NCBI GenBank assembly: GCA_028715885.1
Contig: JAQUQX010000006.1
Location: forward strand, 1 to 64,000
DNA from: Candidatus Methanoperedens sp.
GTDB lineage: Archaea; Halobacteriota; Methanosarcinia; Methanosarcinales; Methanoperedenaceae
Direction of reading: 5' to 3'
Length of the DNA stretch: 64,000 nt
Shown here: positions 1 through 5,948 of the stretch, piece by piece
Layout: the number at the start of each line of letters is the position of its first letter
Position numbering within the stretch: position 1 is the stretch's first letter
Translations under genes and position numbers: made by a program
The notes under the pieces: generated by a model
Seen by the model: the letters and a program-made list of their open reading frames with translations, nothing else
Told to the model about the DNA's origin: nothing
The model's database searches: none

Positions 1-76
1 CGGTCAGCCCGACTGCTTTTAATAAAGACCTGTGCGGGGCGCGTTCAAGTCCTTTTTTGATGTTATCGCTTCTCAT
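1..76 (-). CDS. ilvD: Dihydroxy-acid dehydratase, N-terminal 25 codons (partial)
   Basis: The reverse strand from 76 opens with ATG and reads [20 protein letters not shown], followed by AVGLT, up to the window edge. This is the characteristic amino terminus of dihydroxy-acid dehydratase (IlvD/Edd family), the Fe-S enzyme that makes the 2-keto acids for valine, isoleucine and leucine. Only about 5% of the usual roughly 550 residues is visible, so domains and cluster ligands cannot be checked. An archaeal TATA-like box lies about 30 nt upstream, suggesting an almost leaderless message. The transposon at 126-4574 begins 50 bp upstream of this start codon. Confidence 0.85.
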
Positions 77-125: not shown

Positions 126-176
126 GGTTCTGTCAAGTCTGCGTTTGCTGAGAAGTGCTGTCAAATTTCGTTTGCT
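126..176 (+). repeat. Left terminal inverted repeat with two iterons
   Basis: The outer 24 bp match the right end exactly. Within this end a CTGTCAA...CGTTTGCT unit occurs twice, at 130-149 and 158-176, which looks like two transposase-binding iterons. The transposase stop codon (133-135) lies inside the repeat, so about the last 15 residues of the transposase are encoded by it. Confidence 0.8.
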
Positions 177-1302
177 GGCTTGCATTCTGAATTAAGGTAA
201 TCCACTTATTGTCACCCTCTACCTTGATGCCACAGGCTTCCGCTGGTGTCTTACCCTTCAAAGCTTCATGCGGTCTCATGTAGTTATGGAATATCTGATA
301 GCCAGCGATGATGGGGGTATCGGTACTCTTTAGCCCACGCATGACCTTTTCCCTATCCCTGATTTCTCCGTTGATTCGCTCCATTTTATTGTTATTCATA
401 TCGCCATCCAGCTTTATGGCATTAATGTGCTTCGATTGCGGGTTTTTCAGCGTGAAAAATTCCTTATTGAACGCATCGTGGTAAGCGGGCAGTCCATCTG
501 TTATAAGGGTATTCGGTCTCTTACCTGCTATCTTTCTGCCATCATGGAACAGGTTTCTTGCATCGTGCTTAAACTTCGTATCTGCGACTTCCTGAGCTAT
601 CCAGTATCGGGTATCGTCATCCATGAGAGCGAATAGATACTTCATATTGCCGCTGAATTTAACGAATACCTCATCGGCTCGCCATGTATCGCCTACTTGC
701 GGTTTTAGCTTATTCACATACTGCTCCATGAGTTCAGTGTATTTGCCTATCCAGTTAAGAACTGTCTGATGTGATACATGAACGCCAAGAAGTTTAAGTG
801 ATTCCTTTGTATGCCTTAGTGATTCCCCGCTAAAATAAAGTTGCATAGCGGTTGTAACAGCCTGCGGGTTATGCTTCATCTTCTCGAAGCCGATATTAAT
901 GGAGAAATGTTGCTGGCAATCTTTGCAATAAAATTTCTGAATATCGTAATCCTTGTTATGCCTTATGCCGAATTTCTTAAGGTTTGTAGAATGGCAGAAT
1001 GGGCAATCTGAAACCGTTACAGGCTTAATTACAATACTCTTTTTGACCTGCTCTCTCAGGTTAAAGCTGAACTCAACGCCGAAAATGTGTTTGCATTGAA
1101 CGCCTCTACTTACGTGGTCAGGGCAGCTACACTTCCAACCTATCTCAGTCGAATTTACGTCATAAAGAAAGTCGCTTGATTGCGATTTGACCTTATATGA
1201 TTGGTCATTTATCCGTATTATCTGACCCTGCTTTTCAGCAATGGCTTTCCCTCTATCCTCCCTTGTCCCGATGGTTTGCATGTTGTTATTATCTGTGAGC
1301 AT
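133..1302 (-). CDS. DDE transposase with SWIM zinc finger
   Basis: 389 residues from an ATG at 1302 preceded by an AAGGAGG ribosome-binding site (about 1311-1317); a longer frame to 1413 lacks such a site and overlaps the promoter region. The N-terminal part has a SWIM-type finger (C58, C60, C69, H71), then a second CxxC...CxxC zinc ribbon near residues 100-130. A DDE catalytic domain follows: D209 in WRADEVFVKF, D268 in ITDGLPAY and E307 in NNKMERINGE. The C-terminus ends with the HNYMRPHEAL block typical of DDE transposases. It should excise and integrate the element whose ends lie at 126 and 4574. Its last residues are encoded within the terminal repeat. Confidence 0.9.
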   Translation of the reverse strand: MLTDNNNMQTIGTREDRGKAIAEKQGQIIRINDQSYKVKSQSSDFLYDVNSTEIGWKCSCPDHVSRGVQCKHIFGVEFSFNLREQVKKSIVIKPVTVSDCPFCHSTNLKKFGIRHNKDYDIQKFYCKDCQQHFSINIGFEKMKHNPQAVTTAMQLYFSGESLRHTKESLKLLGVHVSHQTVLNWIGKYTELMEQYVNKLKPQVGDTWRADEVFVKFSGNMKYLFALMDDDTRYWIAQEVADTKFKHDARNLFHDGRKIAGKRPNTLITDGLPAYHDAFNKEFFTLKNPQSKHINAIKLDGDMNNNKMERINGEIRDREKVMRGLKSTDTPIIAGYQIFHNYMRPHEALKGKTPAEACGIKVEGDNKWITLIQNASQQTKFDSTSQQTQT

Positions 1303-1326
1303 TGTGATTTCCTCCTTACTAATCTG

Positions 1327-1407
1327 TCGTACGATAGATTGACGCCATACCATATAAAGCTTTCTACAAATCGTACGATGGGTTATCTTTAAATACTCAT
1401 TCGTACA
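1327..1407. promoter_or_regulatory. Shared divergent promoter region with TCGTACGA operators
   Basis: Between the transposase and the cargo operon the palindrome TCGTACGA occurs at 1327-1334 and 1371-1378, with a near copy TCGTACA at 1401-1407 and another CGTACGA inside the next gene at 1436-1442. A minus-strand TATA-like CTTTATATGG (1350-1359) would place the transposase start near the first site. A plus-strand TTTAAATA (1388-1395) lies between the second and third sites and 25 nt before the cargo ATG, implying a leaderless cargo transcript. The arrangement suggests one regulator controlling both directions. Confidence 0.55.
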
Positions 1408-1415
1408 ATACAATC

Positions 1416-1727
1416 ATGTATATGACTAATAAAGCCGTACGAAAGAAGGGAAAGCAGCCAGAGCACCTTGATTATTCAAAATTACCGAATGAATTGGAGG
1501 ATGTAGTTACAGAGCCTCTATCCGATATTGCTGAAAAGGAGGCTAATATCAACCATGACGGTAAACAATGGTTAGTTCGATTTCCTAACGATATAGCCAA
1601 TGCTATCGGTATCAAGAAAGGGGATAAGGTCAGGTTCAGGGTTGTACTGCCATCTCCTAAAGCAAATCAGCAAGAGGAGATAGAGATTAAGTATGTAAGG
1701 GGTGAAACGAGTGAAAAGAGTGGATAA
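1416..1727 (+). CDS. AbrB/SpoVT-like DNA-binding protein, transposon cargo
   Basis: 103 residues; ATG at 1416 or two codons later. The second half, GKQWLVRFPNDIANAIGI followed by KKGDKVRFRVVL, matches the swapped-hairpin AbrB/MazE-type DNA-binding fold. The first half is charged and unassigned. In plasmid addiction and developmental systems this fold acts as an antitoxin or a transition-state regulator. Here it is the first gene of the cargo operon, directly behind the TCGTACGA palindromes and overlapping the next gene by 26 nt. It could be the control protein of the restriction-modification gene, an inference from position only. Confidence 0.65.
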   Translation: MYMTNKAVRKKGKQPEHLDYSKLPNELEDVVTEPLSDIAEKEANINHDGKQWLVRFPNDIANAIGIKKGDKVRFRVVLPSPKANQQEEIEIKYVRGETSEKSG

Positions 1728-1923
1728 CAAGTTTGCTCCTAATGAAAAGCGAATAATCAATCTTCTATACGTTGCTCGGAGACCTTTGACCACAAAACAG
1801 GTCTCGGAAAAATTGGGAATTGCATGGCAGACCGCAAAGGATAACCTTATGAGCTTACATCGGAAGGGTTATGTTGTCATGCAGAAAGGAGGCAACAGGA
1901 CTTACTGGTGGTTGAGGACATGA
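1702..1923 (+). CDS. Small winged-helix protein, transposon cargo
   Basis: 73 residues, starting at GTG 1702 (or GTG 1711). The chain reads as a compact winged helix-turn-helix: a helix (NEKRIINLLYVA), the HTH segment LTTKQVSEKLGI plus AWQTAKDNLMSLH, and a wing ending RTYWWLRT. It resembles MarR/ArsR-like or FaeA-like small DNA-binding proteins. It overlaps the AbrB-like gene upstream by 26 nt and the RM gene downstream by 16 nt, so the three genes are probably translationally coupled. A role in repressing the RM gene or the transposase is plausible but not shown. Confidence 0.65.
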   Translation: MKRVKRVDNKFAPNEKRIINLLYVARRPLTTKQVSEKLGIAWQTAKDNLMSLHRKGYVVMQKGGNRTYWWLRT

Positions 1924-4511
1924 AAAAAGAAGAAACAAACGACATTGTCCAATATTTAATTCCTCAATTAGAGACGTTGGGAATCAGCCGTGATAATTGT
2001 AAAGTAGATGTTACAACCGAGAAAAGCGGTCAAAGCAGGGGAGACGTATGGGTTTCATTAAAAAAGCAAAACGAAAGAAAATTTGAGGAAAACATAATTG
2101 CTCTCATCGAAGCAAAGCACAAAAAAGCGATAATAGGTGACATGGATTGGCGTGACGCAATGCGTCAGGGGAAAGAGAAGGCAACAAAACAGGGATTGCA
2201 TTACTATATTGTCACAAATTGCACGGATGAATTTCGATTTTATAATGCTCACAACGATGAAGAAATCTTACTCGATGGGAAGGCTCTTACAAAATTAGTT
2301 ACCATAGAGGTATTGCAGAAAATACAATCGCAGGTGTCTATACATAACTCCTATGTTCTACATAGAGCGAGTGAAGTCACCCGTCCTTTTTCAGAGGACA
2401 AATTCAGGGTCACGCTGAGGGTATTAGCCGATATATACCGCTCGGCAGGTCTTAAGAAAGGAGATGAAAGAATAGACCCTACGGTAAGCTTTGTGGTTTT
2501 AAAATATATATCTGAAAATGAAAAGGATAAGAGAACTTTAAACGAGGTAATAAAGCTCTGGGATGACTTGAGAAAAATTGCCAAAGATGAGGAAGTGGGA
2601 GACCTTAAAGCCGAATTTGATAAAACTGTTCAGCAAATATGGGGTAAAGATAGTGAATACAAAGACAATATTTACGAAGATTTTAAAGACCTTATATCCA
2701 TTTCTCAAAAGCTTAAAAACGAACATTGTAAAAAAATATATAACGAATTAAATGAATACCCGTTTCATGGTGTTAATTTTGATTTGTTCGGTGCTATTTA
2801 TGAAGAATTTGCCTCCCAGACAAAGAAAAAAGAGTTTGGAGAGTACTATACAAGAAGGCATATAACGAAAATGGTTGCGATGCTTTTGCTTAGAAATGAA
2901 ACAAATCCAAGAGTATTGAAAATTTGTGACCCAGCGTGTGGGACTGGCGGATTTTTAACAGAGGCATACAAAGCTTTGGAGACACTTTATTCGCAGAATG
3001 GAAAACTGAATAAGTCGGTTGCGACTGATTTAAGGGAAACTATTTTCTGGGGTTATGATAACGATGATAAGTCGGTGGCAAGAACCAAATTAAATATGTT
3101 CTTGGTAGGCGATGGGCATGTACATATCTATGAAAACGATTCTTTAATAGGCGAAAATAAAAAGAAAGGGTGGGTGGACAACGAATTTGATTATATTATG
3201 ACCAATCCCCCAATGGGGCAATATGATGGGGAAGCTAAAATAGAAGATTTTAAATTTACAAATGAACGAAGATACGAACTCCTTTTTATAGAAAAAGTGA
3301 TTGAAGCAACTAAATCTGGTGGAGAGATTGCAATAGTAATAAATGATGGTGCATTGGAAACCCCGTCCCGTGAGAATTTCAGAAAAAAACTGTTAGAAGC
3401 ATGTGATATTTACACCATCATATCTTTGACTAAATTTGCATTTGCACCCTATACAAAAGAGAAAACGTACATTTTGTTCATGCAGAAGAAACAAGAAGAT
3501 GAAATGGGAGAAATACAAAAAATACCTATCTGGCACTTTATTTTAGATTATGACGGCTATGCGAATAGTGATAAGCGGTATAAAACCAAATACCATGATG
3601 ATTTGCCAGATTTAGAAGAAAAATTCGATGGAGCTATCAGGTTGGCAAAGATTTACTTATCTGATAAAGCACGGTTTGAGCGAGAAAAATCCAATTTTGA
3701 AAGAAAAATAAACGATAGGGAACAAAAAGAGGGGTTATGGGGAATGAAATATGGATACGTAGAGATGGAAAAAGTAACTGATGAAAATTTTCATAATCTA
3801 CTAAGTGAGTTTCATTTAAGACCAATTATTAAAACTAAAATTACCAAAAAAGATTTTGACAAAAATATCTCAATGTCGCTAAAACAAATTTATGAATTAA
3901 AGGAAAGCAATTCATTACATTTTCCAAATATATTAGATAAACAAACCGAAGCGAGTGCAATATTGGGAGATATTTTATATTTTAAGGGCGGGAATAGTGG
4001 ACTTACAGAGGAGTTTATCTATAACAATCAACCGAATACGGAAGATGAAAAAATTCCGATTTTTTCAGGTGCGACAGTACAAAACAATTCAATGGGGCTT
4101 ATATCTGAAAAGGCGTGTCCTAATGGAAAGAAGCTAAAAATCTTTCATGAGCCAGCTATTTTAGTCGTAAGGAAAGGGAAAGCAGGGAATATGGTTTACT
4201 TAGAAAGGGGACGATATACTACAAACGATGATATTTATGTTTTAACACCTAAAAAGGAATGGAAGGATAAGATAAATCTCCGATGGTTCACATATCAGTA
4301 CCAAGAGCTATTTTATAATTTAGTAACATCTAAAAGCGACAACGCTACCTTTAACAAAGATTATGCAGAAAAGCAAAGAATAGTTCTTCCAGATAAGAAT
4401 ACCCAAGACAGAATTGCAGAAGTTTTATTAAAAATAGATGGCTTGTTGGAAACATTAGATACATCGAATATACAAATCAAGAAATTGATGGAGCAAGAAA
4501 TTATCTCATAG
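1908..4511 (+). CDS. One-chain restriction-modification enzyme (nuclease-methylase-specificity fusion)
   Basis: 867 residues from GTG 1908 (a GGAGG lies about 14 nt upstream); ATG 1920 is the alternative. The N-terminus carries a PD-(D/E)XK-like signature: D46 in RGDVWV and E68-A-K70. An HsdM-like N6-adenine methylase follows, with helical bundle, FGEYYTRRHI, motif I DPACGTGG at 341-348 and motif IV NPPMG at 433. The last 200 or so residues look like a type I specificity half-subunit (target recognition domain then a helix). This architecture matches type IIG/type I-like single-chain enzymes that both methylate and cut. It is AT-rich relative to the chromosomal genes. It ends 13 bp before the right terminal repeat, so it travels inside the transposon. 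Confidence 0.85.
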   Translation: MVEDMKKEETNDIVQYLIPQLETLGISRDNCKVDVTTEKSGQSRGDVWVSLKKQNERKFEENIIALIEAKHKKAIIGDMDWRDAMRQGKEKATKQGLHYYIVTNCTDEFRFYNAHNDEEILLDGKALTKLVTIEVLQKIQSQVSIHNSYVLHRASEVTRPFSEDKFRVTLRVLADIYRSAGLKKGDERIDPTVSFVVLKYISENEKDKRTLNEVIKLWDDLRKIAKDEEVGDLKAEFDKTVQQIWGKDSEYKDNIYEDFKDLISISQKLKNEHCKKIYNELNEYPFHGVNFDLFGAIYEEFASQTKKKEFGEYYTRRHITKMVAMLLLRNETNPRVLKICDPACGTGGFLTEAYKALETLYSQNGKLNKSVATDLRETIFWGYDNDDKSVARTKLNMFLVGDGHVHIYENDSLIGENKKKGWVDNEFDYIMTNPPMGQYDGEAKIEDFKFTNERRYELLFIEKVIEATKSGGEIAIVINDGALETPSRENFRKKLLEACDIYTIISLTKFAFAPYTKEKTYILFMQKKQEDEMGEIQKIPIWHFILDYDGYANSDKRYKTKYHDDLPDLEEKFDGAIRLAKIYLSDKARFEREKSNFERKINDREQKEGLWGMKYGYVEMEKVTDENFHNLLSEFHLRPIIKTKITKKDFDKNISMSLKQIYELKESNSLHFPNILDKQTEASAILGDILYFKGGNSGLTEEFIYNNQPNTEDEKIPIFSGATVQNNSMGLISEKACPNGKKLKIFHEPAILVVRKGKAGNMVYLERGRYTTNDDIYVLTPKKEWKDKINLRWFTYQYQELFYNLVTSKSDNATFNKDYAEKQRIVLPDKNTQDRIAEVLLKIDGLLETLDTSNIQIKKLMEQEIIS

Positions 4512-4523
4512 AGTGAGCAAGCG

Positions 4524-4574
4524 AGCAAACGATTTTTGACAGCCTATCAGAGCAAACGCAGACTTGACAGAACC
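4524..4574 (-). repeat. Right terminal inverted repeat with two iterons
   Basis: Mirror image of the left end: the outer 24 bp (4551-4574) are identical to it, and the iteron CTGTCAA...CGTTTGCT recurs on the minus strand at 4551-4570 and 4524-4542. Confidence 0.8.
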
Positions 4575-4583
4575 CGTTTGTGC
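4575..4583 (+). repeat. Target-site duplication, right copy
   Basis: CGTTTGTGC, identical to 117-125 on the other side of the transposon. Confidence 0.75.
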
Positions 4584-4589
4584 GGCTAT

Positions 4590-4633
4590 GGGGGGCGGGG
4601 TGCTTGAGTGGGAGTTGGGGGGTGGGAGGCGGG
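4590..4633 (+). other. G-rich tract with G-quadruplex potential
   Basis: Runs of G at 4590-4595, 4597-4600, 4610-4612, 4617-4622, 4624-4626 and 4631-4633. The last four runs have loops of 4, 1 and 4 nt, satisfying the usual G3+N1-7 quadruplex rule. The tract begins seven bases from the right target duplication of the transposon; before the insertion it would have lain about 60-90 bp upstream of the ilvD start. Confidence 0.6.
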
Positions 4634-4700
4634 ATGTTGAAACTCGGGGTGTGAATATGGTAAAAAACGATGTGTATGGGCTTTGTACCTTTGTACGGGG

Positions 4701-5948
4701 TTATGGTGAACTGTGGTTACGTTTACTATTCAGTGCAATATTAAATAATTTATCAGAGCGTTTTCTAAAAACTCCAAATGTAGAATTTATTGATAAATCA
4801 TTTGTAACTTCAGCATGTAGCATATAATTTCCAGAATCTAATCTTGAGGAGTTAATATTTAAATACCATACCCCCTTGTCACTCAAATTTCCAAACATTG
4901 ATTTGTTTTTCGATTCGGGTTCAATAGGTAATATAATATTATCAATATTAGTTAGGCTATTATTCTCAGCGTTAAATTTGTCCAAAGAAATATAATTTTT
5001 AGAATAAGTAAGACCCGTTTCTTTTACTATAAAGGTTAAAATATCAGCATTGTCAGTCGATTGTAAAGGTTCTTCTATCGAGAAAGAACCCATTAATAAG
5101 ACTGACGGGGCTATAAAAAACACCTCATTGTATAATTTTAAAAATGCAGGAATCATTATTGTTAGGCTAATAATTAGAAGAATTATTACTGTTAATGTTA
5201 TTCGGTTAATTTTTCTTATATGCATCATAAAACTATCTGATTTTTCTTTTATTTCTTCCTTAAACTCTTCTTTCCCCCATAGTTCTACAAATAAGAGACC
5301 ATCTGTAATGATGATTAAATAACCGCCAATGAATACATAAGAACTTAAATTAAAACCTTGAATAAAATAATATAATAAAGGTGTCAGAATCGAAATTCCG
5401 ATAATCATTAGAAATCCAAGAATTTCAATATTTTTGATAATATTTTTTGACATCCTATCTAATGCATTTTTCAATTCTTCGTTCCCCACTAAATTAACAT
5501 ATAATATACAGTCTATAATAAAGATTAAAAAAATGTATCCAATTGACATATAAAAATTAATATTAAAATCTGTAATAAAATAACTAAACAAAACTAACAA
5601 AATTGTCGTGACTAACCATAGAATAGGAAATATAAAAACAAGCTTAAATAATTCTACTGTAGATTTTTCTAAATTTTCTCTTCTGTTTCTTGTCGATACC
5701 GAAATCCCTTTTAATACCAAAAATAATAAAATTATCAAAACCTCTAATAATAAAGCACCTACCAAGAAATAAGCTTTCATCTGCGTGGAGTCACTCAATA
5801 AAATAATGTTCTCATTAAAGTAGTTGATTAATTTAAGCAAGAAAGCTAATAAACCACCTAATAGACCTATTGCAAGGGTAATCTTTTCAAAACCACAAGA
5901 ACCCTTCCCTTCAAACAGTTCATCTAACGGTTCAATTTTTCCTACCAA
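4701..5948 (-). CDS. Hypothetical multi-pass membrane protein
   Basis: 415 residues, not recognised. The first 270 residues contain about seven hydrophobic membrane segments (near 22-44, 60-82, 103-126, 132-152, 176-198, 203-222 and 250-270) separated by short charged loops. The last 140 residues form a soluble domain with beta-strand-like pieces such as GVWYLNINSSRLDSGNYMLH, probably outside the membrane. The base composition is distinctly AT-rich, like the RM gene and unlike the housekeeping genes. It stands alone between the G-rich tract and the repeat zone and may be horizontally acquired. A role in sensing or in defence is possible but nothing in the sequence shows it. Confidence 0.65.
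   Translation of the reverse strand: MVGKIEPLDELFEGKGSCGFEKITLAIGLLGGLLAFLLKLINYFNENIILLSDSTQMKAYFLVGALLLEVLIILLFLVLKGISVSTRNRRENLEKSTVELFKLVFIFPILWLVTTILLVLFSYFITDFNINFYMSIGYIFLIFIIDCILYVNLVGNEELKNALDRMSKNIIKNIEILGFLMIIGISILTPLLYYFIQGFNLSSYVFIGGYLIIITDGLLFVELWGKEEFKEEIKEKSDSFMMHIRKINRITLTVIILLIISLTIMIPAFLKLYNEVFFIAPSVLLMGSFSIEEPLQSTDNADILTFIVKETGLTYSKNYISLDKFNAENNSLTNIDNIILPIEPESKNKSMFGNLSDKGVWYLNINSSRLDSGNYMLHAEVTNDLSINSTFGVFRKRSDKLFNIALNSKRNHSSP

Follow-up and report, generated by a model that had tools for sequence, protein, structure and literature searches.

Does the transposon-like segment at the edge of this archaeal contig carry a restriction-modification (RM) enzyme along with two small DNA-binding proteins as a single mobile unit, and if so, do these proteins serve the enzyme or the transposon? 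The segment occupies positions 126–4574 (4,449 bp) of a 64,000-nucleotide stretch of Candidatus Methanoperedens sp. DNA (contig JAQUQX010000006.1), the whole of which is hereafter called the window. Our analyses indicate that it is likely a complete cargo-carrying transposon of the IS6 superfamily, or tIS, in which a fixed core backs an exchangeable RM cargo and the two regulators would control both jointly. Loci, genomes and contigs used for comparison are denoted by L, G and C numbers.

The element and its insertion site

The element is bounded by inverted repeats of 58 nt (126–183 on the plus strand and 4517–4574 on the minus strand), which are 86% complementary and of which the outermost 24 bp are perfect, and it is flanked by an exact 9-bp direct repeat, CGTTTGTGC (117–125 and 4575–4583). 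The perfect 24-bp ends and the 9-bp target duplication claimed in the original prediction are thus borne out. Each end contains two CTGTCAA...CGTTTGCTG motifs at a spacing of 28 bp (130–150 and 158–178 at the left end, with the same doubled motif at the right), a layout shared by most relatives. The survey of open reading frames (ORFs) revealed a minus-strand transposase gene and three divergent cargo ORFs, encoding an AbrB-like protein (1416–1727), a winged-helix protein (1702–1923) and the RM enzyme (1908/1920–4511). The ORFs, the domains and the precise insertion all agree with the predicted content: one transposase, an RM enzyme in a single chain and a pair of small DNA-binding proteins. 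The RM gene had been placed 13 bp from the right end; this was wrong: its stop at 4511 leaves 63 bp to the end and 5 bp to the 58-nt repeat.

Empty sites without the element, proposed as a check, were found in three related genomes, where the joined flanks match without a break (G060, 81%; G059, 80%; G055, 87%), and the target-duplication sequence is intact and present only once at the G055 site. The element lies upstream of an ilvD-like gene, named by inspection of its sequence, whose 5' end (1–76, minus strand) forms the left flank; 49 bp separate the start codon of this gene from the insertion. Together, the ends, the duplication, the empty sites and separate insertions with other cargo place non-transposase genes inside a single insertion sequence (IS) that would move as a unit, which is what defines a tIS. 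The segment is a genuine transposon, and its insertion is probably recent.

The transposase ORF (133–1413, minus strand) is intact, with a probable ATG at 1302, and its product combines a SWIM-like motif and a zinc ribbon with the IS240/IS6 DDE domain (DDE_Tnp_IS240, PF13610; E = 2e-17, above the cut-off of that model). In the related L240 and L241 transposases, SWIM itself scores above its cut-off.

The RM enzyme (1920–4511, plus strand; 863 aa), whose ATG overlaps the stop codon of the winged-helix gene, comprises a nuclease-like N-terminus, an N6-adenine methylase and one specificity domain. The latter two are Pfam matches (N6_Mtase and Methylase_S), and a D...EAK motif N-terminal to the methylase recurs in the alignment of relatives. 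Nuclease, methylase and specificity parts are therefore found in one intact chain, as in type IIG enzymes, with the nuclease assigned by motif. The best PADLOC scores were obtained for type I methylase and MAD2-like models. The likeness to type IIG enzymes (PADLOC REase_MTase_IIG; RM.BsaXI in the PDB) lies in the nuclease-like N-terminus, the N6-adenine methylase and the type I-like specificity domain, whereas in the window enzyme the specificity part is fused in-chain and is a single domain. The enzyme would both restrict and methylate. A search of genome contigs with the RM protein yielded no confirmed relative, and the order-wide search yielded one clear relative, 40% identical, which lies outside any element in G060. 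The Pfam matches of the enzyme, together with a weak MazE/AbrB match and a winged-helix match, uphold the domain assignments of the original prediction.

The window starts at the contig edge, 125 bp from the element, and another contig of the same genome (C10) terminates in exactly window bases 1–127. Five other contig starts that were tested each overlap the end of another contig by 127–128 bases, indicating that contigs of this genome meet at de Bruijn-graph branches. The branch between the window and C10 falls at the base where the element (GGT) parts from the empty site (GGC). This suggests that the sampled DNA holds both the inserted and the empty state, an insertion polymorphism, although the evidence falls short of proof because the right junction is unbroken. 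Downstream of the element, an ORF of 415 aa (4701–5948) encodes an apparent membrane protein of no clear family.

A family with exchangeable cargo

Comparison with the nearest relative, the L035 element of strain BLZ2, separates core from cargo. DNA homology comprises the left end and 180–1948 (71%), and then only the last 51 bp; it ends at the RM start, gives way to a different pair of RM and specificity (S) genes, and resumes at the right end. The transposase, AbrB-like and winged-helix proteins are 76%, 67% and 73% identical, respectively, as against 25% over 214 aa for the RM proteins, and the same core thus backs different enzymes. The genes for the AbrB-like and winged-helix proteins follow the transposase more closely than they follow the enzyme. 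They had been taken for companions of the RM system; they are indeed carried together with it, but L035 and G112 assign them to a conserved transposase–regulator core that is not tied to this RM enzyme.

From end searches and duplication tests we delimited 21 elements flanked by exact duplications of 8 or 9 bp; a recognizable transposase is present in 13 of them (in one, L041, the frame is broken), and the other eight have none or remnants only. The transposase-bearing elements span 2.6–8.8 kb, and other ORFs are present in all 13; no transposase-only copy occurs among the delimited elements, while several further copies have just one identified end. For the Methanoperedens end motif, exact 8- or 9-bp duplications flank 16 of 29 inward-facing end pairs, compared with an expectation of about 3e-5 per pair, and are not due to chance. 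Other insertions with cargo and target duplications, which had been proposed as something to look for, do exist; the window element is not a one-off, and RM genes are one recurrent cargo among several.

The family is concentrated in Ca. Methanoperedens, where the order-wide search found transposase copies 71–81% identical to that of the window; in plasmids and phages, the transposase has only relatives 20–26% identical. Outside the genus, relatives were found in a Thaumarchaeota metagenome-assembled genome (L175), in Nitrosotalea (L178), in a contig of a viral collection (L180), and in two other Halobacteriota genomes (L240 and L241; phylum inferred from kinship). RM or nuclease genes are the cargo of six of the 13 transposase-bearing elements: besides the window element, these are L035 and L241 (each a IIG RM gene with an S gene and regulators, the same regulators as here in L035), L039 in Mnv1 (a methylase with an HSDR_N-like N-terminus, and an S gene), L043 (GmrSD-HNH) and L240 (HNH with regulators). 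Defence-like cargo is found in L178 (AAA ATPase, NsnB-like) and in L122 of the same genome as the window, one of the transposase-less cassettes with family ends, which holds a Fic gene. The remaining cargo is mostly unknown or consists of membrane proteins. L136 (RM and S genes) and L042 (NYN) have matching ends and no duplication.

The survey yielded several further observations. The L042 ends (1494–5708) are identical over 45 bp, and their lack of a duplication could stem from an adjacent rearrangement. At L170 (7772–8884), a gene lying between a transposase of the family and a single family end gave a PADLOC match to PDC-S33 (4.6e-114); the other end was not found. Inward-facing family end pairs about 108–128 bp apart, several per genome (L103, L104, L127, L141, L145, L146), are apparently miniature inverted-repeat elements. 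At L240 (10759–11652) and L241 (12472–13287), the elements lie, in different genomes, shortly upstream of closely related CBS/ParB-like genes, named by inspection. The Fic-bearing element (L122 5891–7550, contig C35 of G000) occupies an intergenic site upstream of a carB-like gene. At the orthologous sites (L188–L192), G060 has a family end and a transposase remnant, G050 a family end and a GNAT-like gene, G057 AbiE-like and methylase/ATPase-like genes (by inspection), and G052 is uninterrupted. This site is possibly an integration hot spot.

Our literature search for Methanoperedens transposons with cargo and for SWIM-type IS6 elements, which left many subscription papers outside its reach, found no description of this family. 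Such cargo-bearing archaeal IS6-superfamily transposons are apparently undescribed so far.

Regulators, operators and competing explanations

The AbrB/MazE-like protein (1416–1727, plus strand; a weak Pfam match) has homologues at the same position in L035, L240, L241, L206 and L208, and the winged-helix protein (1702–1923, plus strand; a Pfam match) also has homologues in the relatives. The palindrome TCGTACGA occurs twice in the window, at 1327–1334 on the transposase side and at 1371–1378, 44 bp apart and both between the transposase and AbrB genes. It is accompanied by half-sites at 1401–1406 (TCGTAC) and 1437–1442 (GTACGA) that have counterparts in L035. Pairs of TCGTACGA no more than 100 bp apart number five in the 1.12 Mb examined, and all five lie between a transposase and an AbrB–winged-helix pair, with spacings of 48 bp in L035, 52 bp in L240 and 29 bp in both L206 and L207. 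L241, whose regulators have diverged, instead has TCTTAAGA twice, at a similar spacing of about 47 bp. We infer that the palindromes are operators bound by one or both proteins, and that the regulators may control the transposase and the cargo jointly.

The regulator pair also adjoins an unrelated transposase, with no RM gene behind it, in G112 and G127. The two G112 copies (L206, 90–2218; L207, 7406–9534) are 2.1 kb long and 94% identical, and contain an IS4-type DDE_Tnp_1 transposase, divergent AbrB-like and winged-helix genes and the paired TCGTACGA, with no RM gene. A broader proposal, plausible but tentative, is that at least two unrelated families of archaeal transposases have taken up a portable regulator pair together with its paired TCGTACGA-type operators, which ties transposition to the expression of exchangeable restriction or nuclease cargo; if true, this would be a transposon with its mobility and its weaponry under one switch.

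In the mechanism that we favor, the transposase of the element itself presumably acts at both ends, on the doubled motif, and yields the 8–9 bp duplication. The fixed core consists of the transposase, the divergent control region with its two palindromes and the two regulator genes, and the exchangeable module is here a one-chain type IIG-like RM enzyme. One or both regulators may bind TCGTACGA and, acting at the shared region, repress or adjust the transposase as well as the cargo, so that, for example, both would be expressed at a higher level after entry into a new cell and repressed later. The enzyme would restrict foreign DNA and methylate that of the host, and the cargo probably spreads through defending its carrier cell or population.

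The regulators could instead be private, C-protein-like regulators of the RM operon, captured along with the enzyme and without any role in transposition. Their common orientation and overlap with the RM gene fit this account, as do the RM or HNH genes that follow them in each of the four IS6-type elements in which the pair is present. However, the pair is kept alongside the transposase even as the RM gene behind it is swapped, it is found without an RM gene in G112 and G127, and the operators sit in the shared divergent region; it is thus not a small regulator specific to an RM operon. Because the regulators follow transposases, this account is doubtful. A further possibility is that family ends, from an IS or from miniature elements, came by chance to flank a neighboring RM gene, the cargo then being of no use to the element. 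Closely spaced end pairs are common, as are cassettes that lack a transposase and hold diverse cargo, and the nearest relative of the RM enzyme lies outside any element. Such random capture would not, however, predict the recurrence of an RM gene behind the AbrB–winged-helix pair in a distant host (L241), and it accounts for the origin of the cargo and not for the conserved core, so that we deem it rather unlikely as well.

As the original prediction suggested, the element may possibly act as a selfish addiction unit, the RM gene being retained since, once the element was lost, remaining enzyme would meet unmethylated sites. RM genes are a recurrent cargo (the window element, L035, L039 and L241), and RM systems are known to stabilize mobile elements (PMC3874152). 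Nevertheless, most family members have other cargo, and the empty sites in relatives indicate that these genomes tolerate its absence, though their lineages may never have carried the element. With one chain and one recognition domain, restriction and methylation decay together on loss, and post-segregational killing should therefore be weaker than with separate R and M proteins. We consider addiction improbable as the main explanation. The contig edge 125 bp from the element also raised the thought of an assembly chimera; this very remote alternative was rejected on the perfect duplication, the empty sites of the relatives and the related elements that lie, independently, well within large contigs in other assemblies.

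Several observations weigh against the joint-control transposon that we favor. The operator pairs are few (n = 5), and two of them, in L206 and L207, belong to copies of a single element. The AbrB–winged-helix pair is absent from most family members (L036, L037, L043 and others) and is thus unnecessary for transposition in the family. The transposase scores below the NCBIfam IS6 equivalog cut-off (114.4 versus 125 bits), and it is therefore filed in the IS6 superfamily and not as a plain IS6 member. The AlphaFold model of the RM enzyme had a mean pLDDT of 40 and was not used, and the nuclease domain is consequently assigned by the motif and the alignment.

Relation to known systems and significance

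IS6-type elements have been familiar as bare insertion sequences, which mobilize resistance genes by flanking them. The new family resembles them in its DDE_Tnp_IS240 domain, its GG-tipped ends with a CTGT motif and its mostly 8-bp duplications. It differs in its size (2.6–8.8 kb for transposase-bearing elements, against about 0.8 kb), in the cargo of every delimited transposase-bearing copy, in the doubled end motif and the SWIM motif, in having both 8- and 9-bp duplications (9 bp here), and, for the window transposase, in the NCBIfam score. A zinc finger and an N-terminal extension are features shared with the transposases of IS6 clade i (2021 IS6 review, PMC7986276); the one IS6 member with a passenger gene named in that review is ISDsp3.

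The closest conceptual parallel is found in Tn3-family transposons with toxin–antitoxin pairs at the transposition control region (PMC7157771), which likewise place two accessory genes there, one of them for a DNA-binding protein, with promoters possibly shared. The window element has a different transposase family, AbrB-like and winged-helix proteins rather than a toxin–antitoxin pair, and RM cargo behind them. Swappable cargo, often of defence genes, is also a feature of Tn7-like transposons (PMC8649781), but the window element is short and has a single transposase, with no accessory transposition or targeting proteins seen. The transposase-less relatives with the same ends, including L122, recall mobile insertion cassettes and miniature inverted-repeat transposable elements, whereas the window element encodes a transposase itself. 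Transposon-borne RM systems were already known, as were RM units with target duplications (PMC3874152); what appears to be new here is a branch of the IS6 superfamily in which cargo is routine and a regulator–operator core is shared.

To conclude, this archaeal branch routinely packs cargo between its ends, restriction systems and other defence-like genes repeatedly among it. It offers a route for the spread of defence genes in Methanoperedens, which are important methane oxidizers, and it can now be tested directly whether a single set of operators couples transposition to restriction.

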